A DNA stretch of 64,000 bases from an uncultured Clostridia bacterium. Its GTDB lineage: Bacteria; Bacillota_I; Bacilli_A; RF39; UBA660. This document shows positions 3,676-45,078 of this stretch, one piece after another (position 1 is the stretch's first letter; every line of letters starts with the position of its first letter). Both the position numbers and the translations under genes were made by a program. A model generated the notes under the pieces. That model saw only the letters and a program-made list of their open reading frames with translations. It ran no database searches and was not told the DNA's origin. The stretch is taken from assembly GCA_947165135.1 (NCBI GenBank), contig CAMUZE010000002.1, positions 1 to 64,000 on the forward strand. Reading direction: 5' to 3'.

Positions 3676-3682
3676 TTAATTT

Positions 3683-22762: not shown

Positions 22763-23338
22763 ATGAAAATAAAAAGAAAAATTATATTTTTTATATCTTT
22801 AATGTCCCTATTTTATTGTGTCTCTTTAATGCAAGAGACATATGCTAAATATGTTTCAAGTGCTGGTGCTAATGCATATTTAACAGTTGCGAGATGGAAT
22901 GTACTTGTAAATAATCAAGATATTGTCGATAACTCAAACTTTTCAGATACAATTGTACCAACATTTGCTGGCACTACAAACATAAGAAGTGGTGTTATTG
23001 CTCCAACTGCTGAAGGAACATTTGATGTAACAATAGACGGAACTAACACTGATGTTTCATTCTCTTATACTGTTACCTTAGATGATGCACCTAATAATAC
23101 TGTTGAAGACCTACAAATAACCAAATATGTAATTGATAATGTCGAATATCAATACACAACAGGAATCACTGATAATATACTTTTAAATGCAGTTAATAGA
23201 AGCGTTACAATTACATTCTATGTAAAATGGAATGATGATGTTGCTACACAAACAATGGATAATGCTGATGATACAGAAGCAACAGTTGATGGTGTTGCAG
23301 CAGTAAAAGTTAATGTTAATGTAATACAATTACAATAA
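22763..23338 (+). CDS. SipW-type (TasA/camelysin-like) exported protein
   Basis: Signal segment ending ETYAKYVSSAGANAYLTVARWNV; paralogous to the product of 30547..31188. Confidence 0.7.
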   Translation: MKIKRKIIFFISLMSLFYCVSLMQETYAKYVSSAGANAYLTVARWNVLVNNQDIVDNSNFSDTIVPTFAGTTNIRSGVIAPTAEGTFDVTIDGTNTDVSFSYTVTLDDAPNNTVEDLQITKYVIDNVEYQYTTGITDNILLNAVNRSVTITFYVKWNDDVATQTMDNADDTEATVDGVAAVKVNVNVIQLQ

Positions 23339-23369
23339 AATAGCTAATACTTTTTTGTATTAGCTATTT
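23338..23369. terminator. Bidirectional terminator with perfect 13-bp stem
   Basis: AAATAGCTAATAC-TTTTTT-GTATTAGCTATTT. Confidence 0.85.
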
Positions 23370-24012
23370 GCTTGTGTGATATAAATCTTAACTCTTATTT
23401 GTATACAAGGGCTATTAGAATGAGCAGCCATATAATCATATGCTCTACTTCCCCAGTATGTATCCGCTGCATCGTCACCAGATTCATAAGGCCATACAAT
23501 AGATGTAGTAAATGTTGCTAAACCGGTCTCTGGTGCAATAGTACTTGTTGACATTGAAAAAGATATTTTAAAAGGATAATCACTTAATAATTTAGCTTTA
23601 AATTGATCGCTGGTTAGATCTCCTGTAACAGCTGTTTCGTTGTCTTCTTGTCTACCCTCAATAGTCTTAAAAGCATCTCCCATAATATTAGCTTCTAAAA
23701 TGGTAAATCTAGCTGTTGCACGTACTTCACTATAATTAAATGCAGTTATAGTATTAGTAAAATTACTCATACCAGGATATACATTATCAGCTGCTATATT
23801 AACATAATCTATTATTGGAGTATCTCCATCAGTAAAATCAATTTTCCAGGATCTAACATGTACATCTACACTATTATTAACTGTATTAACATATATTAAC
23901 CATGCATAAGTATTTGCTGTTAAAAACAAACCTAATATTATAAAATGTCTAAGTCTAATTTTTTTTAGAATCTTTAGAAACTTATTTTTTTTCTTTTTAT
24001 TCTCTTCCATCA
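23360..24012 (-). CDS. SipW-type (TasA-like) exported protein
   Basis: RLRHFIILGLFLTANTYAWLIYVNTVNNSVDVHVRSWKIDF; likely start at MMEENKKK; overlaps the upstream peptidase gene. Confidence 0.7.
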
Positions 24013-24566
24013 TCTTCATCCCTTGTATCAAACACAGATGAGATAATTTCAATGGAAACTATCAATGCAATTACCATGAATGTGAAAAAATACACAAATC
24101 TATTATTCATTAATTTCCCAAAAATACTTAATATCGCTGTTTTATATACTACTTTTCCATATATTTGATCATATGATATTTCTGGATCGGATATTGCATT
24201 AGCTACGCCTTTTGTGACAAAATAATATTCTCCGTTTTGTACTTCTTTTTTTACTACTTTATGAGTTATTATTATATCTTTCAATGTAGAAGTTTTACCT
24301 AAATATGTAACATTATCTCCGATATTAATGTCTTCGGCAGATGTTTGTTTAGACAAAAGAATATCACCAATTTCATATTCAGGTACCATAGATCCAGATA
24401 CTACGGTAAATATTCTAAATCCACCTACAGATATACTATTATTACTAAATTTCTGCACTATAATTACTAGTAATAACAATGCTACAATTATGTAAACAAT
24501 CCATCTTAATATTCTTAAGAATATATTATTTTTTAATTTTTCTTTAATCTGTCTAATCTTCTTCAT
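23997..24566 (-). CDS. sipW: SipW-type signal peptidase I
   Basis: VVSGSMVPEYEIGDILL (Ser) and ITHKVVKKEV...YYFVTKGVAN (His), flanking TMs. Confidence 0.88.
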   Translation of the reverse strand: MKKIRQIKEKLKNNIFLRILRWIVYIIVALLLLVIIVQKFSNNSISVGGFRIFTVVSGSMVPEYEIGDILLSKQTSAEDINIGDNVTYLGKTSTLKDIIITHKVVKKEVQNGEYYFVTKGVANAISDPEISYDQIYGKVVYKTAILSIFGKLMNNRFVYFFTFMVIALIVSIEIISSVFDTRDEDDGRE

Positions 24567-24568
24567 AT

Positions 24569-25699
24569 TTATCCCCTAAAACTAAATTCTAGTATCTTAC
24601 CAATAAATGCATCAATTCTCTCATTAAACTTATGTTCAAGTTCAGCAAGAGTTGCTTCATGTTTATTTTTAATAATGGCAATTTTATCACCAAGTGTCTG
24701 TTGTAATTTCTCAACGGGCATATCAGCATTTAATTCAACTATTTTATCTATCATTTTGTTAGTTATTTCTTCCACCAATTCTGACTTAGCATTATCATCT
24801 AATATTCCATCTTCTTTGTCAATACTAGACATAGTTAAATAATTAAGTAAGAATGTGTCATCGAGCATTTGTTTAACACCTAGGTCATTATCAATTAATT
24901 TCTTATCTTTTGTAACACCATTACCATAATTAGTATTAGCTTGCAAGAAGTCCCATAATTTCATTGCATATTGAAAGTTAGTATTTTTTAGTATTAGGTT
25001 AGTCTTTTTAATAGGTGGTATAACTCTCGCAACGTGTTCTTTTGCAAGCGAAACATATACTTGAGTATTAGTCAAATCAGATATTCTTAATTTCAATTTA
25101 TCTAATCTCTCAAATGCTGTCATTCCATTTCTTTCGCCATCTTCTTTATCATAACTAGTTTTTGAACTAATATGCATATTAATATTTATTCTTTCTGCAC
25201 CTATTTTAGATGATCCCATATATTCGCATACTTTATTATCTCTCAATCTAGAACTAGCAACCATGCTTCGTTCTTTCATATCAATATACATCCTCATATT
25301 GTTGATTAAAGTATATATCAATCTATTCTCATAGGTATTATAACTTTCATCTTTGTTAATATTTAATATTTTAGAAGGTCTAACATCCCCATTATCTTCT
25401 ATTTCTTGAATATAGTTAGTATGCTTAGATAAGTGCTTAATACTTTCAACTGTTATCCTTCTTGCTTGCTCAACTTTAACAATTTCTTCCTCATTTACAA
25501 TAAATCTATTAGGGTTTCTAAGTATATTGTCAAGATACATTATTGTATCTTCCATTATTTCAAGCCACGTGAAATCAGCTTCTATCTTTTCATAGTTAGA
25601 AGCTAAAGAGTATTCTGACTGCAATGATGCTTTAAATTTTGTAATTTTTTTTGATCTTGTGTTGTTATATAAGTCAACAACTCTTAAATCACTGTGCAT
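24569..25699 (-). CDS. DUF2357 / McrC-N-like protein lacking a recognisable nuclease domain
   Basis: ILNINKDESYNTYENRLIYTLINNM motif; adjacent to an McrB-like ATPase; no PD-(D/E)xK stretch seen. Confidence 0.6.
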   Translation of the reverse strand: MHSDLRVVDLYNNTRSKKITKFKASLQSEYSLASNYEKIEADFTWLEIMEDTIMYLDNILRNPNRFIVNEEEIVKVEQARRITVESIKHLSKHTNYIQEIEDNGDVRPSKILNINKDESYNTYENRLIYTLINNMRMYIDMKERSMVASSRLRDNKVCEYMGSSKIGAERININMHISSKTSYDKEDGERNGMTAFERLDKLKLRISDLTNTQVYVSLAKEHVARVIPPIKKTNLILKNTNFQYAMKLWDFLQANTNYGNGVTKDKKLIDNDLGVKQMLDDTFLLNYLTMSSIDKEDGILDDNAKSELVEEITNKMIDKIVELNADMPVEKLQQTLGDKIAIIKNKHEATLAELEHKFNERIDAFIGKILEFSFRG

Positions 25700-25718
25700 T
25701 ATTAACCCTTTCTATTTA

Positions 25719-27257
25719 TTAAGACATCTTCTTAAGTCTTAACACATATTCTATACATTCTTTCATTTTATTTTCACCAAATGTTTTATTCAAGAATTCA
25801 ACAAATCCATCGATTTCATCACGAATCAATGAGATATTTAATTGTTCAAATTTACGAAGTATTTTTCTTGCTATGAAATAGTCTACTCCGTCTACTTCAT
25901 CCCCACCACAGGCAATATAAACTGGAACAAATTTTTTCATATGGGCAACAATTCTGTTACCGAAAGCAATTCTAAAATGTTTGATAACATAATCATCCAT
26001 TTCTTCGATTTTATTTAAAACTGTTTCACTCATTTCATTGCTAGCAATTGCATCTTTAAACAATTGATTTACATATGAGTAATTAATATCTTGAGCAGGT
26101 ACATCCTCAGGTTCAAAAACTTGACCTTTATCATTAATATCTATAGGCATAGCACGGTCGTACACTTTATCAGTAACCATAAATGTAGAGTCATCGTTAT
26201 TGATTGTACCAATATACCAACAGTTAGGTGGTATTTTAAGTTTACCATTCATTAAATGTATTGGATCGCTTGGCCAACCAGAAGATACAACTTCAACAAT
26301 CCATTCATCTTGATTAGGCATTTCTAGAATAGATAGCATCTCAGCGAAATAATATTCGACACGAGATATATTCATTTCATCTAGGATTACTGTATGAATA
26401 TCATCAGTATAGCCTGCTTCATATAATTCTTTTAATATATCTGTTTCATTAAATTTCTTAGTAAATTCGTTGAAATATCCGAATAGTTCTGATCTATCAC
26501 GCCAAGATGGTTGTACGGAAGCAACACATGAGTCATGTTTTAAAAATTTTCCCCAAGCATAAGCAAGTGATGTTTTACCGGTACCAGATATACCTTGTAA
26601 AATTACAAGCTTTGTACTTGCTAAAGCTGATATAAATAATCTTATCATTTCTGTTTTATAGTACAATTTTAACTTGCCAGCTGCGAAGTTTCTAAACAAT
26701 TCAACCAATTCTTGTAAATTAAAGTTATTACCATAATTAGGAATCTTATAATCAGCATATTTTAAGTCAACATCATGCAATTTAGCAAATCTGATAGATG
26801 TATTTGTATCCAATTCTTCCTCTGGCTTGTTCTCCTCACCCTCGATTTTTTCTAAGGTAGGACTTTCATTAGGTTTTAGACCAATTTGAGAAACTTTCAT
26901 AGCTAAAATATCTTCTTTTTCTTTAAGAAGTGTCGCTACTCTACCATTCAAATCAGATATTTCATCTAACATTGACTCTTGTTCAACAATTGTTTTTCTA
27001 AATCTTATATACTTTCTTATAATAAATACTACTAGTAGCACTACTAAACCAACAAATATTAATAATATTAATACTGATATACCAAATAATACCCACTCAC
27101 CAATATTAAAATCATTTTTATAATTTGATGCTATCTTAATATATGCCCCTATATCAAAAATCTTCTTTATTCCGTTTATTATCCCTTTAAATATTGATAT
27201 AAATCCCGAAAAGAATTGTGATAGTATTTCATAAAAATATTTTATAAAAGTTTTCAT
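25719..27257 (-). CDS. Membrane-anchored McrB-family AAA+ NTPase
   Basis: Walker A GISGTGKTS; Walker B VILDEMNISRVEYYFAEMLSILE; sensor GTINNDDSTFMVTDKVYDRA; N-terminal TM plus coiled coil. Confidence 0.88.
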   Translation of the reverse strand: MKTFIKYFYEILSQFFSGFISIFKGIINGIKKIFDIGAYIKIASNYKNDFNIGEWVLFGISVLILLIFVGLVVLLVVFIIRKYIRFRKTIVEQESMLDEISDLNGRVATLLKEKEDILAMKVSQIGLKPNESPTLEKIEGEENKPEEELDTNTSIRFAKLHDVDLKYADYKIPNYGNNFNLQELVELFRNFAAGKLKLYYKTEMIRLFISALASTKLVILQGISGTGKTSLAYAWGKFLKHDSCVASVQPSWRDRSELFGYFNEFTKKFNETDILKELYEAGYTDDIHTVILDEMNISRVEYYFAEMLSILEMPNQDEWIVEVVSSGWPSDPIHLMNGKLKIPPNCWYIGTINNDDSTFMVTDKVYDRAMPIDINDKGQVFEPEDVPAQDINYSYVNQLFKDAIASNEMSETVLNKIEEMDDYVIKHFRIAFGNRIVAHMKKFVPVYIACGGDEVDGVDYFIARKILRKFEQLNISLIRDEIDGFVEFLNKTFGENKMKECIEYVLRLKKMS

Positions 27258-27265
27258 CTTTCACC

Positions 27266-28243
27266 TCACAATACAACTATTTCTGTTCCTATATCCTCTC
27301 TACTATTTATAATAATATCATAATATTTAGCATTTTTGTTAACAAAAATATAACTAAATAATAATAAACAATCAAAATCCATATCGTAACTCTCATCTAG
27401 TTCAACACAAATGCTAAATCCTTCATTAATTAATTTATTAACAGTCTTCTTGTTTTCTTTATATTCTTTATATTTCAGTTTCAAATTAACCTTGGATTTT
27501 AAAAACTCATTGTCAAGTACTCTTAAATATTTAAGTATTTTCTTTTGCTTTCCGAACAATGATGTTGGAAAATCTACAACATATTCATTTTTAAAATTTA
27601 ATTTAGTTATATCATCTATTACCCTATAAGATATCAAAAGTAATGATAAATATAATTTATTCTCATTCACCATTTCAGAATTATAAGCCTTTTCTATGGC
27701 ATATTCACTATATAATTTAGATAAATTACAATTTTGATCTAGTGTTACCACGCTTATATATCCTTGATATTTTTTTTCATTTAAACTAAATTCATTTGAA
27801 GTAAATACCTTAGATAATTCTTGTTTCTTGCTTAAAAAATTTCTCAATAAAGCTGTTAATTCTTCTTTAGCTGTTATGTTATATACTAACGTAATTGTAT
27901 TATCACTAAATAATGTTTTGATTAAAGAATTTAGTTCATTTGGTGTTTCACATTTTTCTATGAACAAAACATAACTAAATAATGCAAAAATATTTTTAAT
28001 TTTTTCTGACTTATCCTCATTTTCTTTAATCATCTCTTTAGCAATGCTATTTAATTCTTTGTTTAATCTTTCAGTAAATTTATTTTCTTTTATTACAAAT
28101 TCATTATAATACCTAATACTAATGTATTTATCTATAAAAGGCCTTACTAAACTTCTTTCATATTTATTGGCTAGTAAAATTCTAAAATAGCTAGAAAGAA
28201 AATTATCAATAAATTTCATATAATCATCAAAAATACAATTCAT
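27266..28243 (-). CDS. Conserved-cluster protein of unknown function, predicted cytoplasmic
   Basis: 325-aa ORF without TM/signal, tightly packed between ATPase and TasA-like genes. Confidence 0.6.
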   Translation of the reverse strand: MNCIFDDYMKFIDNFLSSYFRILLANKYERSLVRPFIDKYISIRYYNEFVIKENKFTERLNKELNSIAKEMIKENEDKSEKIKNIFALFSYVLFIEKCETPNELNSLIKTLFSDNTITLVYNITAKEELTALLRNFLSKKQELSKVFTSNEFSLNEKKYQGYISVVTLDQNCNLSKLYSEYAIEKAYNSEMVNENKLYLSLLLISYRVIDDITKLNFKNEYVVDFPTSLFGKQKKILKYLRVLDNEFLKSKVNLKLKYKEYKENKKTVNKLINEGFSICVELDESYDMDFDCLLLFSYIFVNKNAKYYDIIINSREDIGTEIVVL

Positions 28244-28251
28244 TTTTCCTC

Positions 28252-29154: not shown

Positions 29155-29195
29155 CGCTATTCTCCATATTAAAAATTATACCATATAAAAAGAGG

Positions 29196-29807
29196 TTATG
29201 CAACTTGGGATGCGTTTATAATAATGGAAAACATCTCAATAACCCCTTGGTAAGAATCTGGCTTATTTTTGTTTTCTAAAGGGAAAACAACTTTCAATGT
29301 ATATTCATCTGTTTCATCTCTCAAATGACTAAAAGTTCTAACGTCATCGCAATTATAAACTTTGTAATATACATCATTATCGTCTTGCCTCAAAAGTGTA
29401 TTTGAAATTATATTTGTGTGTGCACCTTCAAAGGACTGATTTCTTATTATTTCATACTGTAATGGGAGATTAGTAGTCGTTTCAAACTTAATAGTATATT
29501 CTAAATCAACATCTGCCCTTTTATTATTTTTCTTATTAGTAACATAAAATCTATAATACTTAGGTGCACTACTAGGTTCCAATCCATCAATATATATTTG
29601 ATTTTCATATAATCCTTGATCTATTACGAAGAATGCAACATTTGCATTGGCACTTACATCAACATCCGATTCATATCTTGTATATGTTCTTCCAGCAATA
29701 TTAACTATTAAAACTAGCGATACAAAAACAAATATTAGTTTAGTTACTAATAGGAACTTCTTTTTATCAAAAGTTTTAAAGAAATTACTAAGCATTCTTA
29801 TCTCCAT
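29196..29807 (-). CDS. SipW-type (TasA-like) exported protein
   Basis: LIFVFVSLVLIVNIAGRTYTRYESDVDVSANANVAFFVID. Confidence 0.65.
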   Translation of the reverse strand: MEIRMLSNFFKTFDKKKFLLVTKLIFVFVSLVLIVNIAGRTYTRYESDVDVSANANVAFFVIDQGLYENQIYIDGLEPSSAPKYYRFYVTNKKNNKRADVDLEYTIKFETTTNLPLQYEIIRNQSFEGAHTNIISNTLLRQDDNDVYYKVYNCDDVRTFSHLRDETDEYTLKVVFPLENKNKPDSYQGVIEMFSIIINASQVA

Positions 29808-30486
29808 TCATATTATTATCTATTCTTTTCATTAATTCATCTAAATCTAGTCTAACTGTATAATTTAAAAATTCTTGTTCTTTCTTATCAAAAGTCACCT
29901 TTTCCCCATTTATTACTTTATCTGTTTTCTTATATAATGCATTTATTTCATCACTAGTCATTTTAGGACTATTTTTTTCTTTATTAATCTCTTCTAAAGG
30001 AATATTCTGAATTTTATTAATTATTTTAATATTTTTCTTTTCTTTATATCCTTTATAAGAGAATGCAAAATCAAATAATATTAACGTAGTGAAAATCATT
30101 ATTAATATTGTTGGAGTTGTTAATACTTTATGCCAAACACCTGCTTTTGAAGAAATTTTAACAACTTTACCAATTATCTTATCTTTAGTAATTGCAACAT
30201 CTTTAGCATTATTAGCATCCCCTTTAGTAACATAATTATTAGTATTTACGGTTACAATTCTATGCGTGATATATGATTTTTCATTTTTAAATGTAACAAT
30301 ATCTCCAACGTTATAATTATTACTATCTTTTACAATTATTAAATCATTTTGACTAATAGTTGGTTCCATACTTCCGGTTGCCACGCTAAAAACAGAGTAT
30401 CCAAATAATTCGAAATAATCCTCTCCTTTTAGCATCATTCTAACTTTACCAATTATTATTAATACTAGTACTAAGAACACTAGCAA
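29788..30486 (-). CDS. SipW-type signal peptidase I, second copy (true start uncertain)
   Basis: VATGSMEPTISQNDLIIV, YITHRIVTVNTNNYVTKGDAN; in-frame N-terminus continues upstream as GVVKIIKKVVKTIVDIL without a canonical start. Confidence 0.82.
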   Translation of the reverse strand: MLVFLVLVLIIIGKVRMMLKGEDYFELFGYSVFSVATGSMEPTISQNDLIIVKDSNNYNVGDIVTFKNEKSYITHRIVTVNTNNYVTKGDANNAKDVAITKDKIIGKVVKISSKAGVWHKVLTTPTILIMIFTTLILFDFAFSYKGYKEKKNIKIINKIQNIPLEEINKEKNSPKMTSDEINALYKKTDKVINGEKVTFDKKEQEFLNYTVRLDLDELMKRIDNNMNGDKNA

Positions 30487-30546
30487 AGTTAAAATATCAA
30501 CAATAGTTTTAACAACTTTCTTTATTATTTTAACTACACCCCATTT

Positions 30547-31188
30547 TTAATTTCCTTCATTACCTTCATTTGGATCTTGGTATTCAACTAAAGTTTCCCC
30601 TAAATATTGAACAGCATGCACATTAATAGGAATAGCCAATTGGTTATTTTCAACCATTCCCAATTCAGTATCTGATTCATCATGATTTCCATCATCATCC
30701 CAATTTAATGTCACTCTTATGGTTATAACTTCATCATTTTGTATTGAAGCTAAACTAACTATTCCAGAATATGTGTTAACATCTGTCCTTATTGTGCTTC
30801 CTGAATTTAAAGCTTCAACGCTAACATTGATATTGTCTTCATAATCGATTTCATCTACTAAAAATTCAATATCATATTTTACTGCAACATCGCAGTCGGT
30901 AGCATCAAATATTAAATCAAAATACGCACTTGTTCCAGGCGCAATATATCCATCAGCAACTGTAGCAGAACTTTCATATACAAAGTTGCTTATAGTTATA
31001 TCTTCATCAAGTCCAGAAGTAATTAATTGATTACTTAATCTTATTATCCACTTTCCTATCTCATTATTTGCAATTCCATAAGCGTCTGTTTCAAATAAAG
31101 CATATGTATCTTTAAATATTAAAGCGGTTATTGCAACAAGCACAATAACGCCAGTCCATAATAATATTTTTATTTTATTCTTCTTCAT
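30547..31188 (-). CDS. SipW-type (TasA-like) exported protein
   Basis: TALIFKDTYALFETDAYGIANNEIGKWIIRLSNQLI; paralogue of 22763..23338. Confidence 0.7.
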   Translation of the reverse strand: MKKNKIKILLWTGVIVLVAITALIFKDTYALFETDAYGIANNEIGKWIIRLSNQLITSGLDEDITISNFVYESSATVADGYIAPGTSAYFDLIFDATDCDVAVKYDIEFLVDEIDYEDNINVSVEALNSGSTIRTDVNTYSGIVSLASIQNDEVITIRVTLNWDDDGNHDESDTELGMVENNQLAIPINVHAVQYLGETLVEYQDPNEGNEGN

Positions 31189-31708
31189 CTTTACTTGATT
31201 TAATTTCTTCTATTATTGAATAAACCTCATAAACTACGGCAAAAATTGTTGGGAATATAATAAAGAACATAAATCCCCATTTTGATTCTAAAATTGACAA
31301 AAGTAATCCCCATTTATGATATACTTTTGCTTCTTTAGCAGGACCCATTAATTTGTTAAATGACACAGAATCATCTCCAAAATAATATGCATCCTCTGCA
31401 TGATCAACTCTATCTATTCTATTTATTTTTCCATAATTAATAAACACAGCATCTTCTGGATTATCAATAATGAAGAATGCAAAATCTCCTACATTATATT
31501 TTTCTTCTATTACTTTTTTTGTAATAACTATATCATGTTTTAAATAATCCGGTTCTAATCTTTCATTATCAACAACAAATATTGAATAATCACCAATTTC
31601 ACTTACACTATATTTATTATAGGAAAGTAACAATATTGTAGTTACTATTGCTATAATAACCCAAATACTAATCAACACCCATTTTATTACGTTACCTATT
31701 ATCTTCAT
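31175..31708 (-). CDS. Degenerate signal peptidase I homologue (predicted pseudo-protease)
   Basis: Same architecture as SipW but SGSMxP is replaced by NERLEP and the THxVV His is absent. Confidence 0.7.
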   Translation of the reverse strand: MKIIGNVIKWVLISIWVIIAIVTTILLLSYNKYSVSEIGDYSIFVVDNERLEPDYLKHDIVITKKVIEEKYNVGDFAFFIIDNPEDAVFINYGKINRIDRVDHAEDAYYFGDDSVSFNKLMGPAKEAKVYHKWGLLLSILESKWGFMFFIIFPTIFAVVYEVYSIIEEIKSSKDEEE

Positions 31709-31743
31709 TTTACATCTCCCTACTATATTTTAATTATAATATT

Positions 31744-33255
31744 TTACTCATTTTTAGTCAATTCTTTGCCAGAATCAATAATGAATTTTATATCTTTTAA
31801 ATTGATACCTAAATTAATTATGTCATAATAGATTAATAGCTTATCGATATTTTCAATAATTTTATCTATTTGATCACTACTAATTTTTTCATCATCTACT
31901 ATAATTCCATTTAATCTGTATTTTTGACTTATCATTTCTAATACATTTTTTTCTTCTAATAGAACTATATTATCAATTACATCAACACTTCTATCATAAA
32001 TATATTTCTGTAATTCTAATAAATTATCATCTATAGATTTAATATTAATTTCCACATCTTGTTTTTGTAATAAATTAATAAAATAATTAAAATTATATGT
32101 AGTTAATTTTAAAACATCATAATAATTAGTCTCGGTTGTAAAATAATTTCTTATTACCTCTTTAATAGCAAGTTCATCTAAATCATTATATAGATTTGAA
32201 AGATTAGTAATAATTTTTTCTCTATCTAATTTGGCATTAGCGAGTTTTTCTCTATTTAATTTAAATAGTCCTTTTTTATTTATTTTCTTATTTATTGAAA
32301 ATAAATTTTTTTCTTCTTTAGATATTTCCTTTAATTTATTATTAAATAAATCTTTATATTCTTCTTTATGACTATATAATTCTTTAAAATCAGTGATAAT
32401 AAATTGATATTTTGAGTATCCTTTATATTCAATTAATGACTTTTTATAATTAACTAAATTGCCATAATTTCTAACATTCTCAGCATTTGTTATTAAACTA
32501 CTTATTAATATATTCATTTTACTATCATCATCATACTCATCAATATCTAATTTATCGTTAATAAATAAGTTATAAATATATTTTTTATTAGTGTGTTTTA
32601 TATTATCAACGTCATCTAGTTTTGCTCTATATAATGCTATATAATTATGGAAATCAAATTTAGAATATTTGGCTTTATAATAAGAATCTATCTTAGATTT
32701 GTTTTTATAATATAAATACCATATATTTAATGATATTTGCTTAATAATATTTGGCTCTTTAAAATATATTTCATTAAATATATTTTGTATTTCTTCTTTA
32801 GAATTTAATAGTGTACTTATATATAAGTTAACACTTTCAGTATGATTAAAATCTTTTTCAGTAAGAATAATTCCGACTGTTTTAAAACTATCAAATATTT
32901 CAAGTAATACTTCATTTATTTTACTTAGTCCTTCTCCACTTGAATTATTTAACTTATATAATAAGTAATTTAAATTCATTTTCTCATTAGAAGAACATCT
33001 AATATCAGATAATTTTAAAGTGTCGTAATCAATGCTAACATCTTCTAATTTTAATAATGTATTCTCATATACACTTGATATGTTAGTTCTTCTTTTGTTG
33101 ATTTCATCTTCACATTCTTTAAGTTTTACAATATATTCTTCTAAACATTTGGAAACATACTCTGTATATTTTTCTAGATTTTTCTTATTGTTTGTAGGAA
33201 GGATATCTATGTTAGAATTAATCTTTTCAATTTCTTCATTAATTTTATCAATCAT
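31744..33255 (-). CDS. Large helical/coiled-coil cytoplasmic protein of unknown function
   Basis: 503-aa K/E/N-rich ORF without TM; ATG overlaps the stop of a 33-aa ORF. Confidence 0.6.
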   Translation of the reverse strand: MIDKINEEIEKINSNIDILPTNNKKNLEKYTEYVSKCLEEYIVKLKECEDEINKRRTNISSVYENTLLKLEDVSIDYDTLKLSDIRCSSNEKMNLNYLLYKLNNSSGEGLSKINEVLLEIFDSFKTVGIILTEKDFNHTESVNLYISTLLNSKEEIQNIFNEIYFKEPNIIKQISLNIWYLYYKNKSKIDSYYKAKYSKFDFHNYIALYRAKLDDVDNIKHTNKKYIYNLFINDKLDIDEYDDDSKMNILISSLITNAENVRNYGNLVNYKKSLIEYKGYSKYQFIITDFKELYSHKEEYKDLFNNKLKEISKEEKNLFSINKKINKKGLFKLNREKLANAKLDREKIITNLSNLYNDLDELAIKEVIRNYFTTETNYYDVLKLTTYNFNYFINLLQKQDVEINIKSIDDNLLELQKYIYDRSVDVIDNIVLLEEKNVLEMISQKYRLNGIIVDDEKISSDQIDKIIENIDKLLIYYDIINLGINLKDIKFIIDSGKELTKNE

Positions 33256-33349: not shown

Positions 33350-33359
33350 AAATTCCTCC

Positions 33360-36300: not shown

Positions 36301-39300
36301 AATACTGAGCATGAACTTAGAAGTGTACAACTCGATGTTCCAACCTCAGTAGTTCCACCAACTATAATACTTGTGTTTCCAAGTACTTTTGCAGTTGCTC
36401 CATTACCTCCAGCATAAGCACTTGTTCCTAAAGTAGAATCATTTATCATAACATCAGTGCTTCCTAGAACAATACCATTATTTCCTCCGCCATAGATGCT
36501 TCCACCTACAGTAATTCCATCCATTTTAAGTTCAGTTGAACCATTAACGGCAGCAGAAGTACCATTTCCAGCAGCATATACTGAACCATCTATAGTTGTT
36601 GTTCCATTAATTATTACAGATGTATTTGTTCCAACAGTACCATTATTTCCTCCACCATATACATCGTGGGCTAAAGTACCATCAGTTATTGTCAATTCAG
36701 TTGAACCAGTGACAGTTGCGGATAAACCATTTCCTCCGGCAAATACTGAGCCATATATGGCAGTTCCATCAATTGTTATTGATGTGTTTCCACCAACTGT
36801 ACCATTATTTCCTCCACCATATACATCATGTGATACAGATCCATCTATTATTTGTAATTCAGTTGTCCCACTTACTGTTGCGGATGAACCATTTCCTCCG
36901 GCAAATACTGATCCAGTAACCGGTACATTATCAATAATTATATTAGTGTTTCCACCGACAGTACCGTTGTTTCCTCCACCATATACATCTACCGCTACTG
37001 TACTATCAGTAATAGTTAGTCCAGTATTAACACCTACAGAAGCAGTTGTACCTTTACCACCAGCAAACACTGAACCACTTAATGCAGAAGAATCAATTGT
37101 CACTGAAGTACTTCCAGTTACAGCACCATTATTTCCTCCACCATAAACATCTCCGCCTATTGTACCATCAGTAATTGTTAGTCCTGTTGATCCACTTACT
37201 GTCGCTGTTGAACCATTTCCTCCGGCAAATACAGATGCACCAACAGATGCATTATCTATTTCAACCGAAGTATTTCCAGTTACAACGCCTTGGTTTCCTC
37301 CACCATATAGATTACCAGTTACGCTTCCTCCTAGTAAATCAACATCTACATTTCCATTTACATTAGCAGCATTACCACCACCATATAATGTGTTAATAGT
37401 TCCACCATTAACTACAGTAGTTGCACTTGTTACAGCTGCTTGGTTTCCTCCACCATATACATTTGTTATGGTTCCAGTTGTTATTTCTACATTTGTATCA
37501 CCTGAAGCGGCATTATTACCACCACCATATACATCAGTAATAACACCAGTGGTTACAGTTACATTAGTTGTTGTAGTTGAACCTCCTGCGTTGTTTCCAC
37601 CATATAAACTAGTTATAGTTCCATGATTAATTGTTATATTTGATGTGGTAACAGTTCCACTTTGATTAGAACCACCAAAAACACTAGTAACATGTAAATT
37701 GTTATTTGATGGAGTAATATTTACATTAGTTGTTGCAGCACCAGCTTGATTTCCCCCGCCATATACTGCGCCAATTGTATTTGTTGCATTATTTACTGTT
37801 ACATGTGTAGCCTCTGTTACAGCAGCTTTGTTTCCACCACCATATATTAAATTAGTTGTTCCGTTGTTTACTGTTACAAAAGTATTTGTTGCCGGTGCTT
37901 CATTACCACCACCAAATATAGTTGTTGCTGTTCCACCAGTTAATGTTACATTTGCAGCAGTTGTTGTGCCACCAGCATTATTTGCACCATATGCAGTTGT
38001 TGTTGTTCCACCATTAATAACTAAGTTAGATGTTCCAACATCACCTGTTGTATTAGATCCACCATATGCATTAGTGATTGTACCATTATTGATTGTTACA
38101 TGAGTAGTTGTAACACCTACTGAGTTACCTCCACCATATACATTTGTTACTGTACCTTTTCCAATAGTAACATTTGATGTAGTAACAAGTCCTGACTGGT
38201 TAGATCCACCATATACATTTGTCACATTTATATTATTACTTCCAGATTGAGATATTAAATTAACATTTGTAGTAGTTGCTCCTGCTTGATTTCCTCCACC
38301 ATATACATTTGGAATAGTGTTAGTGGCATTACGAACATTAACAGTTGTAGTTCCTGTACTAACTAAGTTACCACCACCATATACAGCGGAAGTTACCGCT
38401 CCTCCATTAATATTAACAGTTGTTGCGTTACATGTACCACCTTGGTTATTACCACCAAATATAGTACTTGTTGACCCTCCAGTTACATCTATTGTAGTCG
38501 TAAGGACTGTTCCACTCTGGTTAGAACCACCATACATAGTAGTTACTGAACCACCCCTCATGTATATGTGTGTATTATCAACAGAAGTTTTATTTCCACC
38601 ACCATATACATTTGTAATAGTTCCGCCATCTATATACACAAGGGGATCTTTTGCAGGCTTTCCAGCCTCATCAAATCCACCAAATACGCTTCCTATTGTC
38701 CCCCCATTTATATCAACTGTTATTTGACCAGGTACATAAGGAGTATAAGTACTACTACCTTTTGCACCCCCAAATACTGAGTCAGTAATTGTTCCTTTGT
38801 TTACTGTTACATTAACTGTTTTGTTATTAGCAGCAGGATTTGTTGCAACTGCATTAACTGTACCATAAGCACTACCACCATATACTGAACCATTAATAGT
38901 TGGGCCAGTTGATGATGTACCAATATTTACAGAGATATTATTATTTACAAAAGTACCATAATTGGTTGCATCTTGATAGCCACCTTCACCGCCACCATAT
39001 ACATCTGTTTTTACTGTACCCGCTTGTATATTTACAGTTGAAGAGCCATAAATTCTTCCTTTAGTACGAGAACCACCATATACTGAACCGTCTACTGTTC
39101 CGTCATCCATTGTAATTGTAATATTACACGTATTTCTATCAGTTCCAGCACCATTGTTATTTCCACCACCATATACTGAACCCTTTATTTCACCGCCGTG
39201 AATTATTATGTTAGTTGAATATGTTTGGTTAGTGCCTTTTTGTCCAGTTGCACCATGGTTTCCTCCACCATATACATTTTTATTTATAGTGGCTTCACCA

Positions 39301-42300
39301 TCTATAATAACATTTGAATTGTTAACAGTTCCAATTGAACTATATCCTTCTCGTCCATTTCCAATTCCAAATACACTTCCAGCTTCTACTTGTGAATTAG
39401 TTTCTAGTGTTCCAGATGCAATATTAGGATCTCCTATCACTGCTTTTCCGCCAATATATACATAAGAATCACCATCTACTGTACTTGTATACTGTGTATC
39501 ATCGCCTTCAATTCCGTTAGATCCACCAAATACCGCATAATTAACACGGCCACCAGTTACTTGAATAATTCTATTTCCATAAGTTTCACTTCGTCCGGCA
39601 CCTCCTATGATAACATCAACATATCCACCTTTCATATTGATATAACTATCATTATATGAACTAATATTAGATGTAGATAGAGGGCCACCTATTAAATTGT
39701 AAATCCAGCCGCCTTCAACTATTGCAAATCTTGGGCTAGTATGACTACCATTACCACGGCCGCCAACATATATACCAGCAGCATAATCTGCTTTATTACT
39801 TCCATATCTTCCACTTTTAACAAGAGTATGTAACATAGGAGTGGTAATATTAGTTCCTTTTATGTCTCCAAACCATGATCCTGATAAACAGTACATTACA
39901 TCTAATTTAGAAGACGTAGCAGGTGTTGTTTCAGTTACTTTATCATAATCATTTCCAAACGTTCCATATGCATCAACATATTGAGTAAACGAACTCAAAT
40001 AGTTTGCATTAGCGCCTGTAGTGGTTAATCCCAAGTTATTATATATACCTGATTCAACTATAAATGTGTATCTGGCCATATTAGAACTACTTACGGAACT
40101 CATATTTCCACCAATAACGTAATCAAAACTAACAGTAGTGTTATTATATGATGTAATATTTCTTCCTATCTTACAATTATGATAGTTACAATACATACTA
40201 TCATATGCTGGGGTGGTATAGTAATTATATCTACTTCCTCCACGTACCTGAGGCGATGTATCATCATCTATTCTATCCACACCTCTTATACGCATATTTT
40301 CAATTTTTGTATCATTATAAGCAAGTATTCTTAGTTCTCTTGCGTCCCAATAATATGAACTTATATTATTTGTATTACCTTGAACAGCAGTAAAAGTAAA
40401 TGGTTTATTTTGAGAACTTCCCCAAGTACCAGTTATATTTCCTCCCATCACTACAATGTTTGTATCTCTAGTTGTTTTGTAATATAGAATATCTCCATTA
40501 GTATAAACTTCAGGATTATTATTTATATCATAGAATTGTATTAATTCATAATAATTGCATCCACCATTAGTGTTACAAGTACCACTTGTCATTACATCGC
40601 CATCAGAATCAAAGTATCCAACTAATGACCCGTTTCTTGGAATATTTATAGTTCTATAATATCCTGCAGTAGATTCACCAACAGGTATTTCTGATGTATA
40701 ATTTAACGTTGCTGGAACAGTTGAAATAGTCATAGTGCCATTAACAAGTTTATAATAATCTGTATTGCTATTATATGTACCAGTAGCAGGTTCATAAAAA
40801 TAACATCTTCCAAATAAACCAGCGCTACATCTACCAGTTAATGGATTACCATTAGCATCAACTGCTCCCGCTGGATAATTGTTGTTATTACGAATATTGG
40901 AATATACATAAAAACCTGTTATGTCATACGTGTATGTTACAGCTGAAATAGCATGAAATCCATCATCTTCTAAATAACCAAATGTGTTAGACCAACTACT
41001 TGCATATGTTGTGATTGCTCCAACACCCCAAATTGCATAGAAATTGATATTGATGTTTTCAGGTGTTGTTCCATTATAAGTAATAGGTATTTTAACACTT
41101 CTAACATAAATATCTGTGTCTAGTGAAATTATAGCGTCACTATAATCAGTTAGCCAACCTTGGAATACACGATTATTAGGATTCTTACTATACGGATTAT
41201 CTATCAAATCAAACTCAACATAATCATCCGAAGTATTACTGCTTGTTCCATTATCATTAATTGGGTATACTTTGTAGTAAACAAATTGATTATGATTTTC
41301 GCTTGCAGATAAAACTCCTGTATATCTATTTTGATAATCCCTACCATAATAATGTGTTTCAATATACACTAAATTTGAATCGTTATATATATTTTTCTTT
41401 GTTGTAGTAGGTAGTGTCCCATCAGAAGAGTAAGTATAATTTAATCCATCATAATAATTAGCATCGCTTTCATATTCATTTATATATACTACTGTTCCTT
41501 CCGTACCACTATTATGAGCAGATGGAGCATTAGCTCTTAATGACTTAGTTCCTCTTTTAGGTGATGATTCATTTTTACCATTGTTTTGAAGTTTAAATAC
41601 ATTATCTTGTATTTTCCATTTTATATCGCTACCATCATTTAACAAATCTAACATTGCCTTTGTTGAGTAATTATTATTAAATTCTATTTTATTTTCATTG
41701 TTAACACGATATTTATACATAGTATCACTATCTTTAATATCATAATCTCCCATTAATGGTAATGTTGTAGTATTATAAATAATATTTTCAATAGTTGAAC
41801 CACCATAATTGCCAATTAATAAAGGACTTAATAATGTGCTTTCTGAACCAGATATACTAATATTTCGAACGACATTTTCTTGATTATCATAAAGAATAAA
41901 AACAGTTGAATAAATGTCTTTGCCTATGTCTTTTGTATTAATTCTAACGTTATTAATTGATATGTTTTTAATAGTTGAATGATCTGCACTTGATATTAAA
42001 GCAACATTGACTTTAGTTATTTCTATTTTCCCTTCTTTAATTTCACCAGGTATATCTTCAGGAGCATTATCATCTTTTACAGTTTCAATATCAGTATTAT
42101 CCTCGATACTATCAGTCTTTTCGCTAACGTCATTATCAGATTCAGAGTTTGTAATATTGTTAGGTATCTCATCATCTTTTTTATTAGTTTCTGCAGGTTC
42201 TTCATCTTTAATAGAGGCTACTTCTTCCCCACTACCACCATTATTTTCAGTTTTTCCTTCATCATTAGTATATGTAGTATCTTCATTTGCATTTTCTAGT

Positions 42301-43091
42301 TTTATATCATCAGCAAGAAGCATAGCAATAGGTTCACTATCCGTATTGTTTCCTTCTACATTATCAACATTAAGTTCTTCTTGTGTTTTCTCTTTTTCTT
42401 GTGCCTTTATTTCATCTTCTGCAGTTTTTTCACCAGTTTCATTATCATCATTTTTTTCTTCTTTTAAATTATCATCAATTGTTTCTTCTTGTGTTTTTAC
42501 ATCATCTGTTTCTGGATTTTCATTATTTCCATCATTGTTTTTTGTTTCTTCTTTAATAGGCTCGACTAGTTCTTTATTTTCCTCTTTAATATTATCAACA
42601 TTAATAATAATGTCACTAAAATTAATGTTTCTAACATTAGCGTTAGATAATGAATCAAACAATGAGAAAGTTACCTCGTCGCCAACATCATTTAGATAAT
42701 AATTATTAATTTCAAAATTAGAAATTGTAAATCCGTTACCATTTAATACTCCACTAAATGGTTTATTGAATTTTGCAAATGAAAAATCATGACCATCAAG
42801 ATTAATGTTGTTTTTTATTTCATAAGATTTATCATAATATTGGACTGATTCTTCACTATTAATTAAAGTAAAAAAATAAGCAAGCTCACTACCATTATTT
42901 ATAATATAAGGATTTTTAATACTACCATCACCAGAAGCAAATTTTTTGGCAACAGTTCCATCCCAAATAGTGGATGTTGTTTTTTCACTAAATGTGTTAT
43001 ATAAAATTACTGCATTTAAAAGGAAAAATAGGACAAAAACTGCTATTATAAGTCGTCTTTCTTTAAGTTGTTTTAATACCTTTTCCTTCAT
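33360..43091 (-). CDS. Giant (3243 aa) membrane-anchored surface protein with ~40 [YF]GGGN repeats
   Basis: N-terminal TM; GLUG-like SGVLNGNGFTISNF; acidic linker; InlB-like QGWLTDYSDA; tandem VYGGGNxxxV repeats; beta-rich C-terminus. Confidence 0.85.
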   Translation of the reverse strand: MKEKVLKQLKERRLIIAVFVLFFLLNAVILYNTFSEKTTSTIWDGTVAKKFASGDGSIKNPYIINNGSELAYFFTLINSEESVQYYDKSYEIKNNINLDGHDFSFAKFNKPFSGVLNGNGFTISNFEINNYYLNDVGDEVTFSLFDSLSNANVRNINFSDIIINVDNIKEENKELVEPIKEETKNNDGNNENPETDDVKTQEETIDDNLKEEKNDDNETGEKTAEDEIKAQEKEKTQEELNVDNVEGNNTDSEPIAMLLADDIKLENANEDTTYTNDEGKTENNGGSGEEVASIKDEEPAETNKKDDEIPNNITNSESDNDVSEKTDSIEDNTDIETVKDDNAPEDIPGEIKEGKIEITKVNVALISSADHSTIKNISINNVRINTKDIGKDIYSTVFILYDNQENVVRNISISGSESTLLSPLLIGNYGGSTIENIIYNTTTLPLMGDYDIKDSDTMYKYRVNNENKIEFNNNYSTKAMLDLLNDGSDIKWKIQDNVFKLQNNGKNESSPKRGTKSLRANAPSAHNSGTEGTVVYINEYESDANYYDGLNYTYSSDGTLPTTTKKNIYNDSNLVYIETHYYGRDYQNRYTGVLSASENHNQFVYYKVYPINDNGTSSNTSDDYVEFDLIDNPYSKNPNNRVFQGWLTDYSDAIISLDTDIYVRSVKIPITYNGTTPENININFYAIWGVGAITTYASSWSNTFGYLEDDGFHAISAVTYTYDITGFYVYSNIRNNNNYPAGAVDANGNPLTGRCSAGLFGRCYFYEPATGTYNSNTDYYKLVNGTMTISTVPATLNYTSEIPVGESTAGYYRTINIPRNGSLVGYFDSDGDVMTSGTCNTNGGCNYYELIQFYDINNNPEVYTNGDILYYKTTRDTNIVVMGGNITGTWGSSQNKPFTFTAVQGNTNNISSYYWDARELRILAYNDTKIENMRIRGVDRIDDDTSPQVRGGSRYNYYTTPAYDSMYCNYHNCKIGRNITSYNNTTVSFDYVIGGNMSSVSSSNMARYTFIVESGIYNNLGLTTTGANANYLSSFTQYVDAYGTFGNDYDKVTETTPATSSKLDVMYCLSGSWFGDIKGTNITTPMLHTLVKSGRYGSNKADYAAGIYVGGRGNGSHTSPRFAIVEGGWIYNLIGGPLSTSNISSYNDSYINMKGGYVDVIIGGAGRSETYGNRIIQVTGGRVNYAVFGGSNGIEGDDTQYTSTVDGDSYVYIGGKAVIGDPNIASGTLETNSQVEAGSVFGIGNGREGYSSIGTVNNSNVIIDGEATINKNVYGGGNHGATGQKGTNQTYSTNIIIHGGEIKGSVYGGGNNNGAGTDRNTCNITITMDDGTVDGSVYGGSRTKGRIYGSSTVNIQAGTVKTDVYGGGEGGYQDATNYGTFVNNNISVNIGTSSTGPTINGSVYGGSAYGTVNAVATNPAANNKTVNVTVNKGTITDSVFGGAKGSSTYTPYVPGQITVDINGGTIGSVFGGFDEAGKPAKDPLVYIDGGTITNVYGGGNKTSVDNTHIYMRGGSVTTMYGGSNQSGTVLTTTIDVTGGSTSTIFGGNNQGGTCNATTVNINGGAVTSAVYGGGNLVSTGTTTVNVRNATNTIPNVYGGGNQAGATTTNVNLISQSGSNNINVTNVYGGSNQSGLVTTSNVTIGKGTVTNVYGGGNSVGVTTTHVTINNGTITNAYGGSNTTGDVGTSNLVINGGTTTTAYGANNAGGTTTAANVTLTGGTATTIFGGGNEAPATNTFVTVNNGTTNLIYGGGNKAAVTEATHVTVNNATNTIGAVYGGGNQAGAATTNVNITPSNNNLHVTSVFGGSNQSGTVTTSNITINHGTITSLYGGNNAGGSTTTTNVTVTTGVITDVYGGGNNAASGDTNVEITTGTITNVYGGGNQAAVTSATTVVNGGTINTLYGGGNAANVNGNVDVDLLGGSVTGNLYGGGNQGVVTGNTSVEIDNASVGASVFAGGNGSTATVSGSTGLTITDGTIGGDVYGGGNNGAVTGSTSVTIDSSALSGSVFAGGKGTTASVGVNTGLTITDSTVAVDVYGGGNNGTVGGNTNIIIDNVPVTGSVFAGGNGSSATVSGTTELQIIDGSVSHDVYGGGNNGTVGGNTSITIDGTAIYGSVFAGGNGLSATVTGSTELTITDGTLAHDVYGGGNNGTVGTNTSVIINGTTTIDGSVYAAGNGTSAAVNGSTELKMDGITVGGSIYGGGNNGIVLGSTDVMINDSTLGTSAYAGGNGATAKVLGNTSIIVGGTTEVGTSSCTLLSSCSVFGGGNAAETGTQSADNSVASVKIAGAIIHGNVYGGANTSKVYGETDVNIGNDVTLVNGISSGDIVISGTVFGGGEANASGSDVYDWTFISVTQGINVNINGANRNQFTISGSIFGSGNASTAAGDSTVTIKNYGTFNDPKRNVSIQRTNLLVIDNSSIVLEGATDRENEYSDVLFTLSRIDELDLKNNSTLFLETGANLLKEFKSLTSNGSLAAVQIDTEHGTVTKNVDNRVYMFADKKLNIAKNQSATDYGEVSGMSFFGMYKYNGNGTINTGIYNKFNYDEVLDWGGVFDNVSSYVLGLHKTNHDIEVDGFYTNYIDEETSKNKINYIEPIPPVGQMYMWTIGEGVIEYEVDLSASKYSTLGTTELSLRDFTDPNTSFQILGFDYSELASGIQLVEKTNISKIANTTNDADTIMGLSMETSNSGWLTNGYTSFLSRANNNIIGTREYVGGNSTSTPTVLFYLHHSKNIGTSGDMGRVRIQLMSVRQIDALTKETKRLIITANLTRTLFDTVNYEGALTPGRKYDLFTSTTANITSSSAISTYYSLFNSGSTIYRTGYYRTLVSNYVLPLNTKITMIDLSKNTPEYYYHVITQNDVTSATSQLSLYNEATYNFSILEVMGAINSGVYYNDATKNSEYCTANNYCNEDFIFIIDFGDTNITSDALNNELLLEIRNATNDTIYSVLAPQHLDLVYNIYANKDAVIDIDGELDKEKIYAGETFTADLDIEYTQSTIGSATIYDTHYFDSKLGIKISLINEDGNVVPGITLLGLYYTIGEDRYYPNIDGTTRVKIADKVDSAEKWIIVNTGTSSLASGDYKLRVETFGSPDGIYYGLNSSDYVDLDIEIVNEIYGLNIETSAEEMMIDAATGTNANGDNTIVYNVRYNSGLTSPKINFKMYRRNYNTVYDTTYTLVDAADYLDNILFQGYNTNEYIFLDNPTDNAQVIFTLKDDLLTGTYKIEFILYGDTSIIGTLERYIIIK
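35930..39300 (-). repeat. Tandem coding repeats (YGGGN/FAGGNG modules) inside the giant gene
   Basis: Recurrent plus-strand ccrccatatac / cctccggcaaatac motif at ~60-75 nt intervals. Confidence 0.9.
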
Positions 43092-43120
43092 TTAACTCCT
43101 ACTCTTCCATTCTATTTAAA

Positions 43121-43149: not shown

Positions 43150-43185
43150 TATTTTGTGCTTCTTTTTTATGCTAAAAAATGGCAC

Positions 43186-43214
43186 AAAAAAAGCAGGAAA
43201 ACCTGCATTTTTTT
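43186..43214 (-). terminator. Terminator between 43220 gene and giant gene
   Basis: GCAGG-TTTT-CCTGC-T7 on the minus strand. Confidence 0.8.
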
Positions 43215-43219
43215 AATTA

Positions 43220-44350
43220 TTAATGAGTTATTGTTGGGTCATCTAATGTGAATCCTAAATTATAAGTCAAATATGCTCCAGATGCTGAGTTTTCACAGTC
43301 TATATCTTGACCTTCTACCCACATATATACTCTAATCTTTGTAACACCAGCACTTAAACTGAATATTGGATAATAATCAGTTGCTCCTGAAGCAGCTTTA
43401 CCATAATATGAGAAAGTTGCATCATTAGTTTGAGAATATGCGGCATTAGTTCTTACAAGTGTTGCATGTGAATTACCAACAGCCTCAAAATATGTACTTG
43501 ATGGTGTTCCTGGTGGGTTAGTACTTGGTAATAAGATTGGACTTGAAATTTGAGCTTTAACTCCTACGTATGATACTGGGTCAGTTGCAAGACCAGTTGA
43601 TGAATTCCATGTTGAAACTGTAATACCATATGACTGATTAGCTGTAGTTATAGCAGCTTGAGTATGAGCATCATAATTTGGTTCAACTATAATTGATGAA
43701 GTACCATTTTTATAACCTTGTAAAGTACTTAGTGTTTCTGTTGCAGCACCATTTCCTTCAATTACAAATGCATATCTTGCAGCATTTTCAAGGTATTTTT
43801 GTGTATGACCAGAAGTATTTACAACGCCTGATCCTCTATCCAAATAAACAGTTGCAGCTTCATCAACTTTTAAGAAGATATCAAATGCAACAAAATCTGG
43901 GCTTGTACCAGTTGTAGTGCCTTGAATCCATCTAGATTCAGTTAATCTAGCACCAGTAGTTAGTGCTAATGCACCACCTTGGTTAGAGTCTCCTTCTACA
44001 GTACCTTTAAAGAATTCCATTAATCCTTTATTAGCACCATCAGTAGTTGTAACTGTACCACTAGTAGATACTGGATTTAGTTCACTAGGTAGCATATTAA
44101 TATTATTAGTATATGCAGTAGCATTATTAATATCTGAGTTGCTAATAATAGTTTTCCATTCATTAGCATCAGTAGATATTTGTAGACCAGTACTTGCAGC
44201 AATATGAACATTAATTGGATCAATTGTTACAGTTCTGTTTGCAGTAAACCATGCATATGTTGATGTAGATAACATTAATACTGTTAAAAACAACAATAAT
44301 ATCAATGATCTAAGTCTTTTTCTTCTTTCATCATTTTTCTTTTTTGCCAT
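43220..44350 (-). CDS. SipW-type (TasA-like) exported protein
   Basis: MAKKKNDERRKRLRSLILLLFLTVLMLSTSTYAWFTANRTVTIDPINVHIAASTGLQISTDA. Confidence 0.75.
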   Translation of the reverse strand: MAKKKNDERRKRLRSLILLLFLTVLMLSTSTYAWFTANRTVTIDPINVHIAASTGLQISTDANEWKTIISNSDINNATAYTNNINMLPSELNPVSTSGTVTTTDGANKGLMEFFKGTVEGDSNQGGALALTTGARLTESRWIQGTTTGTSPDFVAFDIFLKVDEAATVYLDRGSGVVNTSGHTQKYLENAARYAFVIEGNGAATETLSTLQGYKNGTSSIIVEPNYDAHTQAAITTANQSYGITVSTWNSSTGLATDPVSYVGVKAQISSPILLPSTNPPGTPSSTYFEAVGNSHATLVRTNAAYSQTNDATFSYYGKAASGATDYYPIFSLSAGVTKIRVYMWVEGQDIDCENSASGAYLTYNLGFTLDDPTITH

Positions 44351-44355
44351 AAGCC

Positions 44356-45078
44356 TCACTCCAATTCTTTTATTGTTTCACTATTATGCTCTTCTGTTAG
44401 TTTCATATGTAATCTTACATGTCCACCAATTAGAGCATTTGTACATTCTGGGTCGTCTCCCTCAATCCAAATAACAACTGTTATTTTATCAAGGTCTCCA
44501 GCCTTCATGTCTTTTCTTTGTTCTAATATAATAGTTCCGTCTTCATCATCCCTGAACTTTACCGTTCCTTTTTCTGGTGCACCATTTATACTACTACCCT
44601 TAGCATAAACAGTTTTTACATCATTTAGATAAATCATTATTCGAAGTGCTTCATCAGCATTCTTAATAACATCATCCATCATAATGTAATACCAGTAATT
44701 AAGAATAGCTTGTCCTTGATTCTCCATATAGAATGAATATGCTATATAATTTTTTCCATTGTGTGATCCTTCATGTTCCGTAATATCATTTGGAAGCCAC
44801 TTTATAGATATATTATCCATAAATTGCAAGTCATCCGCCTTTAGTCTCCTTTTTGGAGTTGGATCATTTAAAGTCTCATACATCGCAAGTCCACTATATA
44901 ACATCTCATTTCTATCGAGTGAGACAATGAAACTACCATCATCAAGAAGAATCTTTAAAACAATATAAACAACTATTAATAACAAAAGCAACAAAAATAC
45001 AGAAAGTTTAATAAATCTACCTAACTTATGCCACCCTCTAATTCTATTTGCTTTAACTACTACATCGTTTTTTGCCAT
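44356..45078 (-). CDS. Membrane-anchored extracellular protein of the TasA-like cluster (start revised to MAKND)
   Basis: One TM; C-terminus VVIWIEGDDPECTNALIGGHVRLHMKL parallels the 43220 product; SD AGGAGAG before ATG at 45078. Confidence 0.65.
   Translation of the reverse strand: MAKNDVVVKANRIRGWHKLGRFIKLSVFLLLLLLIVVYIVLKILLDDGSFIVSLDRNEMLYSGLAMYETLNDPTPKRRLKADDLQFMDNISIKWLPNDITEHEGSHNGKNYIAYSFYMENQGQAILNYWYYIMMDDVIKNADEALRIMIYLNDVKTVYAKGSSINGAPEKGTVKFRDDEDGTIILEQRKDMKAGDLDKITVVIWIEGDDPECTNALIGGHVRLHMKLTEEHNSETIKELE

Follow-up and report, generated by a model that had tools for sequence, protein, structure and literature searches.

A predicted surface-fibre locus of CoCoPALM type combines TasA-like exported proteins and SipW-type peptidases with a nuclease-less, membrane-anchored McrB–DUF2357 pair in uncultured Bacilli

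What would a nucleoside triphosphatase (NTPase) of the kind known from type IV restriction enzymes be doing among signal peptidases and exported, fibre-like subunits? The question is raised by a block of 15 genes, here named A to O, at positions 22763–45108 of contig CAMUZE010000002.1 (assembly GCA_947165135.1, an uncultured Clostridia bacterium placed by GTDB in Bacillota_I, Bacilli_A, RF39, UBA660), whose first 64,000 nucleotides constitute the window analysed here. The closest named relatives of the host draft genome (1.24 Mb, 43 contigs) are metagenome-assembled genomes from gut and rumen, labelled as Tenericutes, Mollicutes, Erysipelotrichaceae or Bacilli. The answer that we propose is that the block is very probably a surface-fibre locus, since a fibre/export reading is well supported by gene context and structure, and that the NTPase likely acts in the surface-fibre process.

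Open reading frame (ORF) calling recovered, in one clustered block, all the genes named in an earlier interpretation made from the letters of the window (hereafter, the sequence-only reading). The minus-strand array that it had described holds for B–O (14 genes, spanning 23360–45108 and spaced by −56 to 128 nt) and fails for A, which stands at the edge of the block, on the plus strand and convergent with B. Its right-hand limit of 45078 falls on an internal ATG of O, a gene which with a TTG start extends to 45108 and belongs to the block. It had counted at least six exported proteins, and about seven TasA-like ones can be recognized; its three SipW homologues were all found, although only two of them (C and I) look active, K being without the catalytic Ser, His and Asp.

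The block is not a chance neighbourhood. A profile search of the GTDB genome collection with McrB (gene E) returned more than 480 relatives, and the locus counts given here refer to the best 80 loci (Table 1). In genomes of the same genus, A–O all occur in the same order, some contigs ending within the block. In our contig it is flanked by ssb–rpsF on the left and by a DUF975 protein and argS on the right; it also adjoins ssb/rpsF in three other genomes, and occupies different chromosomal sites in others. Throughout the 80 loci, a core order (G)-F-McrB-DUF2357-SipW-B, with A convergent, is nearly fixed, and K-J-I-H and O-N-L-M form movable cassettes. SipW stands within three genes of McrB in 77 of these loci, a proximity expected by chance in a few percent of cases given the ~6 SipW-like genes of a 1.2-Mb genome; McrB–DUF2357 pairs devoid of export genes, which the sequence-only reading had named as telling against it, were encountered only among deeper relatives outside the surface-linked clade described below. 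Among 60 related genomes, McrB is present in 18 and SipW in 50. The McrB-positive genomes hold DUF2357 (17), F (15), strong matches of A (14) and B (14), and the McrB-negative ones hold none of them, with Fisher p-values of 5e-14 to 2e-10 for co-occurrence, uncorrected for kinship. Across these loci and relatives a TasA-like fibre/export cluster is co-inherited with a nuclease-less, membrane-anchored McrB and DUF2357, as that reading had claimed; this applies to the A, B, F and D families, found only together with McrB, but not to other SipW/TasA units, which occur elsewhere in these genomes unaccompanied by it, so that a scattering of TasA-like genes, the other observation named by that reading as telling against it, is partly true. 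Given these units and the breadth of SipW, the NTPase has been added to a more widespread export unit and is passed on together with specific subunits of its own. One McrB-less genome carries SipW, TasA-like genes and a gene for an exported protein of 1026 amino acids (aa) (L223, G036:C24).

Gene E encodes an McrB-family AAA+ protein in which a membrane segment (approximately residues 55–80) is followed, in all alignment rows, by a basic coil-like stretch and then by the AAA+ core. In the PDB its profile matched E. coli McrB only (6.6e-5); its Walker A (GISGTGKT) and Walker B (ILDEMN) motifs do not vary across a 12-row alignment, and GTINNDDST, an NxD form, is present in 93 of 93 core homologues, with NxDD or NxDE in farther ones. 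An FtsL model matched E weakly (E-value 0.18). Its partner D matches PF09823 (DUF2357; 4.1e-10), and D together with its homologues (26/26) matches this and no other Pfam family; a conserved D..ExK nuclease motif was not found in the D-family alignment. The block thus shares with McrBC type IV restriction the McrB AAA+ core and the McrC N-terminal domain, and differs from it in having no PD-(D/E)xK nuclease, in the membrane segment that replaces the DNA-binding domain, and in the NxD (instead of NxxD) motif. The NxD branch of McrB is also that of CoCoNuT systems, which, unlike the block, where no nuclease was found, are characterized by nucleases, long coiled coils and predicted RNA targeting.

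The sequence-only reading had taken this combination for an undescribed system, a claim that has to be withdrawn, as the name CoCoPALM had already been given to systems in which an NxD McrB carries a fused FtsB-like domain and has signal peptidases as neighbours (Bell et al., eLife 2024, PMC11090510). The main text of that paper devotes one paragraph to it, in which details are deferred and no mechanism is given; a role in pilus assembly is presumed for the proteins of the signal peptidase family, and the traits mentioned include NxD, often then followed by D or E, and coiled coils fused to McrB and McrC homologues (PMC11090510). In agreement with that paragraph, the block presents an NxD McrB, a DUF2357 partner and adjacent signal peptidases; the membrane and coil-like N-terminus of E may be the FtsB-like segment. 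Judged by sequence, its E-D-C core is of CoCoPALM type on account of the NxD motif and the signal peptidases. Compared with the CoCoPALM main text, the block adds exported substrates of predicted TasA fold, the dead SipW K, the EAL-like protein F and a giant protein; these, the fusion of F with SipW and a clade of four architectures are what is new here. No other description of McrB combined with SipW/TasA was found in the literature searched, nor under Mollicutes or Acholeplasma.

As for the substrates, the AlphaFold2 (AF2) model of A (predicted local distance difference test score, pLDDT, 90.9; predicted template modelling score, pTM, 0.75) has a TasA-like fold. Foldseek against the PDB placed the TasA fibre 8aur first (E-value 1.2e-3, probability 1.00, template modelling (TM) scores 0.43/0.37) and the archaeal bundling pilus 7ueg of Pyrobaculum second (E-value 3.4e-3, probability 1.00), both of them donor-strand fibres. 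In hhalign, A matches B (probability 96.7, E-value 4.5e-10) and J (E-value 7.9e-39); the best PDB sequence match of J is TasA, but with an E-value of 0.51, and against a small M73/TasA-family set J reached a probability of 84, A and B resembling the set weakly by sequence. The short exported proteins gave no significant Pfam or NCBIfam match. The giant protein M begins with a membrane or signal segment at its N-terminus and contains repeats of GG(G/S)N type, spaced by about 24–28 aa, and LPxTG was not found in it. In the tapA-sipW-tasA locus of B. subtilis, a SipW-type peptidase likewise accompanies TasA-fold subunits, which polymerise there by donor-strand exchange; that locus, however, comprises three genes, without an NTPase, DUF2357, EAL-like or giant protein.

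Regarding the peptidases, C and I score 78.8 and 79.4 bits with TIGR02228 (cut-off 51.85 bits), of which K is not a member, and remain under the 190-bit threshold of NF046067, the B. subtilis SipW equivalog (45.5 and 59.1 bits). The catalytic residues are conserved in the C family (Ser 89/90, His 90/90, Asp 90/90) and essentially invariant likewise in the I family. In the K family, Ser is found in only four rows, His is absent from its site (mostly Gly or Ala) and Asp is lost; as these residues have disappeared and the gene has nonetheless been kept in 62 of the 80 loci, K probably has a structural role, as a pseudo-peptidase. The cytosolic tail of some I-type peptidases bears a conserved NYTxRLDL motif, and in L110, L114, L115, L117 and G033 F is joined in a single frame to the cytosolic end of an I-type SipW, which locates F at the cytosolic tail of the peptidase. 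SipW is also fused to an H-type or B-type subunit in six loci (L047, L054, L057, L067, L065, L109), and a further single-frame fusion, between a SipW-type peptidase and a TasA-like substrate, was seen in L198.

The AF2 model of F (pLDDT 93.5, pTM 0.89) retrieved EAL-domain structures in all of its top 44 Foldseek matches in the PDB, including FimX, LapD and RocR (best E-value 4.5e-4, probability 1.00, TM-score to target up to ~0.5). Since the match in sequence is not significant and no acidic residue is invariant in the F-family alignment, F is best called, from its predicted structure, an EAL-like pseudo-enzyme. FimX is a degenerate EAL protein that binds to PilB, a pilus ATPase, and stimulates it (PMC12564702), and by analogy a similar regulatory role is plausible for F; the likeness of a degenerate EAL protein beside an NTPase is one of working only, the NTPase of the block coming from a different family. 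Most GGDEF matches in the host's family are 670–700-aa frames, interpreted here as GdpP, and that family yielded no EAL enzyme; F therefore need not sense cyclic di-GMP, and an obligate role as its receptor is unlikely. The idea that F had split off from long DUF2357 proteins was rejected, as no match to F was found in long D proteins. On a 6-kb contig (L222, G056:C24), a complete canonical EAL gene lies directly upstream of a truncated McrB, followed by DUF2357, SipW and TasA-like genes; the contig may be broken or chimeric, and this arrangement is thus a lead only.

Beyond this lineage, an McrB relative was present in 85 of 392 genomes sampled across the phylum. The surface-linked transmembrane McrBs form one clade (support 99/98) in a tree with long outgroup branches and an insecure root. 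Four architectures are included: the F-McrB-DUF2357-SipW-B type of this block; O-N-SipW-McrB-DUF2357-SipW-TasA-like, a few with a 2650-aa protein in place of SipW; a tandem McrB-DUF2357-McrB beside very large secreted proteins; and a 605-aa McrB form beside SipW, TasA-like and ABC genes. A 900-aa form of McrB falls outside the clade. In two other architectures, a SipW gene is no more than three genes away from McrB in 17/18 and 7/7 loci. The tandem sister arrangement is that of L168–L175, with secreted proteins of 800–2200 aa and no SipW within three genes, and in L156, L163 and L176 the pair adjoins a ~2650-aa protein and a 430–470-aa protein with a membrane segment, with no SipW nearby. Distant NxD McrB–DUF2357 pairs occur on Polaromonas, Deinococcus and Nostoc plasmids, together with PP2C, kinase and AAA genes, which is consistent with recruitment of the surface-linked McrBs from a conflict-type ancestor, although the root is not secure. 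A six-gene plasmid cluster (PP2C/VWA-kinase-AAA-unknown-McrB-DUF2357) is common to these three genera (L188–L190).

We are inclined to think that this CoCoPALM-type locus builds a multi-subunit fibre similar to TasA or to bundling pili, with McrB, DUF2357 and F acting from the cytosolic face, a role that we infer from gene context and the fusion. The TasA-like precursors (A, B, G, H, J and N), exported by Sec, would be freed from the membrane by the SipW-type C and I; once mature, the subunits would probably form polymers through donor-strand exchange and be arranged on the giant protein M. At the cytosolic face, a membrane-anchored ring of E, stimulated by D, would couple NTP hydrolysis to the handling of peptidase or substrate, either timing precursor release or extracting stalled complexes, and the EAL-like F, probably also with the dead SipW K, might serve as scaffold or gate at the ring. 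In its full form (a donor-strand fibre made by an NTP-driven McrB–DUF2357 membrane machine, with a FimX-like F tied to the peptidase and a structural dead SipW) the proposal is tentative; if true, restriction enzymes would have supplied a pilus assembly NTPase of a new class.

Several observations weigh against this proposal. SipW-TasA of B. subtilis works without any McrB (PMC9674648), and SipW/TasA-like units without McrB exist in relatives (e.g., G036), so that simple fibres can do without the NTPase. Sister types 3 and 5 keep McrB–DUF2357 by large secreted proteins, with no SipW within three genes. A is the one exported subunit with a structure model behind its TasA fold, and the subunits of the block, unlike B. 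subtilis TasA, fall outside Pfam M73 (TasA), which is absent from the whole genome. Furthermore, the sequence likeness between F and EAL is not significant in hhalign, with 2/44 family members matching PF00563 (best E-value 0.011); stand-alone GGDEF was not seen in most McrB-positive relatives, a further difference from FimX–PilB; and the SipW–F fusion is probably one event in one subclade.

Other explanations have to be considered besides fibre building. With some six SipW-like genes per genome in the genus, a coincidental linkage of an unrelated NTPase and fibre genes would be expected occasionally, but hardly in 77 of 80 loci, with strict co-occurrence across genera and integration sites and a SipW–F fusion, and we consider it extremely improbable. 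The transmembrane McrB and DUF2357 could still be a conflict module (type IV restriction-like or abortive), with the surface proteins as membrane- or receptor-side effectors: both are parts of type IV restriction, their NxD counterparts outside the clade are found on plasmids in the company of genes for PP2C phosphatase, kinase and AAA proteins, the AAA domain of E matches PADLOC PDC-M26A (7e-35), and an Abi_2/AbiD-type gene (14046–14975; PADLOC AbiD 1e-60, Pfam Abi_2 5e-41) is situated ~8 kb from the block. The PADLOC match, however, spans the AAA core only, and PDC-M26A was rejected as the identity of E for this reason; D has no nuclease domain, no methylase-like gene was found among the eight unlabelled neighbours of the 80 loci, an SNase-like gene occurs in L118 only, and the constant neighbours are signal peptidases and their substrates, all of which makes defence decidedly unlikely.

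A quality-control dislocase (MoxR-, FtsH- or Bcs1-like) would use the same ring, not to drive assembly, but to pull stalled SipW–precursor complexes or orphan subunits from the membrane. Related AAA+ proteins are known to act as MoxR-like chaperones, an ATPase is dispensable in simple TasA systems, and the SipW–F fusion and the long, motif-bearing tails of I suggest that the ring handles the peptidase itself. The block nevertheless encodes no protease partner, and a dislocase should also serve the other SipW loci of the genome, whereas the ring is found only with this subunit set; we regard this explanation as unlikely.

The features of the block are collected in Table 1. Promoter-like matches are not more frequent than in shuffled sequence and were given no weight. 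Elsewhere in the window, an agr-like set (2957–5708) comprises AgrB (2957–3562), a histidine-kinase-like protein (3689–4996) and a LytTR response regulator (4983–5708). M23 peptidase, SpoIID and SpoIIR homologues, at 5786–7358 and 59769–60287, may be sporulation remnants or repurposed in this genome of 1.24 Mb, and a Fic-domain protein (52690–53763) is found near two small helix-turn-helix regulator-like ORFs.

Table 1. Features of the block, with the number of loci (best 80) in which each family was found.
Feature	Description	Coordinates	Strand	Loci of 80	Basis and remarks
A	TasA-like exported subunit, 191 aa, TYAKY boundary	22763..23338	+	63	AF2, Foldseek; convergent position conserved
B	Exported TYAW subunit, homologue of A	23360..24052 (start likely near 24019)	-	72	hhalign
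C	Signal peptidase of SipW type (ER/archaeal type) with intact catalytic residues	23997..24566	-	75	TIGR02228
D	DUF2357 (McrC N-terminal domain) protein, without nuclease domain	24569..25699	-	79	PF09823; adjoins McrB in 79 loci
E	McrB-family AAA+ NTPase, N-terminal membrane segment (~55-80) and coil, NxD motif GTINNDDST	25719..27257	-	80	Profile search, alignment
F	Cytosolic helical and EAL-like predicted pseudo-enzyme, conserved core component	27266..28243	-	67	AF2, Foldseek
G	Exported protein, TFSRY boundary, 300 aa	28252..29154	-	71	Sequence
H	Exported protein, TYTRY boundary; in-frame SipW fusion in some relatives	29196..29807	-	54	Sequence, locus comparison
I	Second peptidase of SipW type with intact catalytic residues; cytosolic tail motif NYTVRLDLDEL	29788..30486	-	39	TIGR02228; fused to F in a subclade
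J	Exported TasA-like paralogue of A, TYALF	30547..31188	-	55	hhalign
K	Probable pseudo-SipW, catalytic Ser/His/Asp lost	31175..31708	-	62	Family alignment
L	503-aa protein, no membrane segment seen, accessory	31744..33255	-	20	No Pfam family over cut-off
M	3243-aa repeat surface protein	33360..43091	-	51	Sequence
N	Exported TYAWF protein, 379 aa	43220..44359	-	42	Sequence
O	250-aa protein with N-terminal membrane segment	44356..45108	-	38	Sequence
Promoter-like site	TTGACA-17-TATAAT upstream of O	45145..45173	-		12/12 consensus match only
Terminator-like hairpin	13 pairs, between convergent ends of A and B	23338..23369	-		Sole one found in 23300-33600; 1 found vs 1.6 expected in shuffles

The assembly of TasA-type fibres is believed to require no energy from the cell, and a conserved, co-encoded NTPase would show that some of them are actively built or controlled. 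Fibre building by the McrB–DUF2357 ring would also document the reuse of a restriction-enzyme motor for surface assembly. Loci of this family are widely distributed among poorly known Bacilli, most of them uncultured, and, as the family has so far only been named, a defined list of its parts makes it testable.

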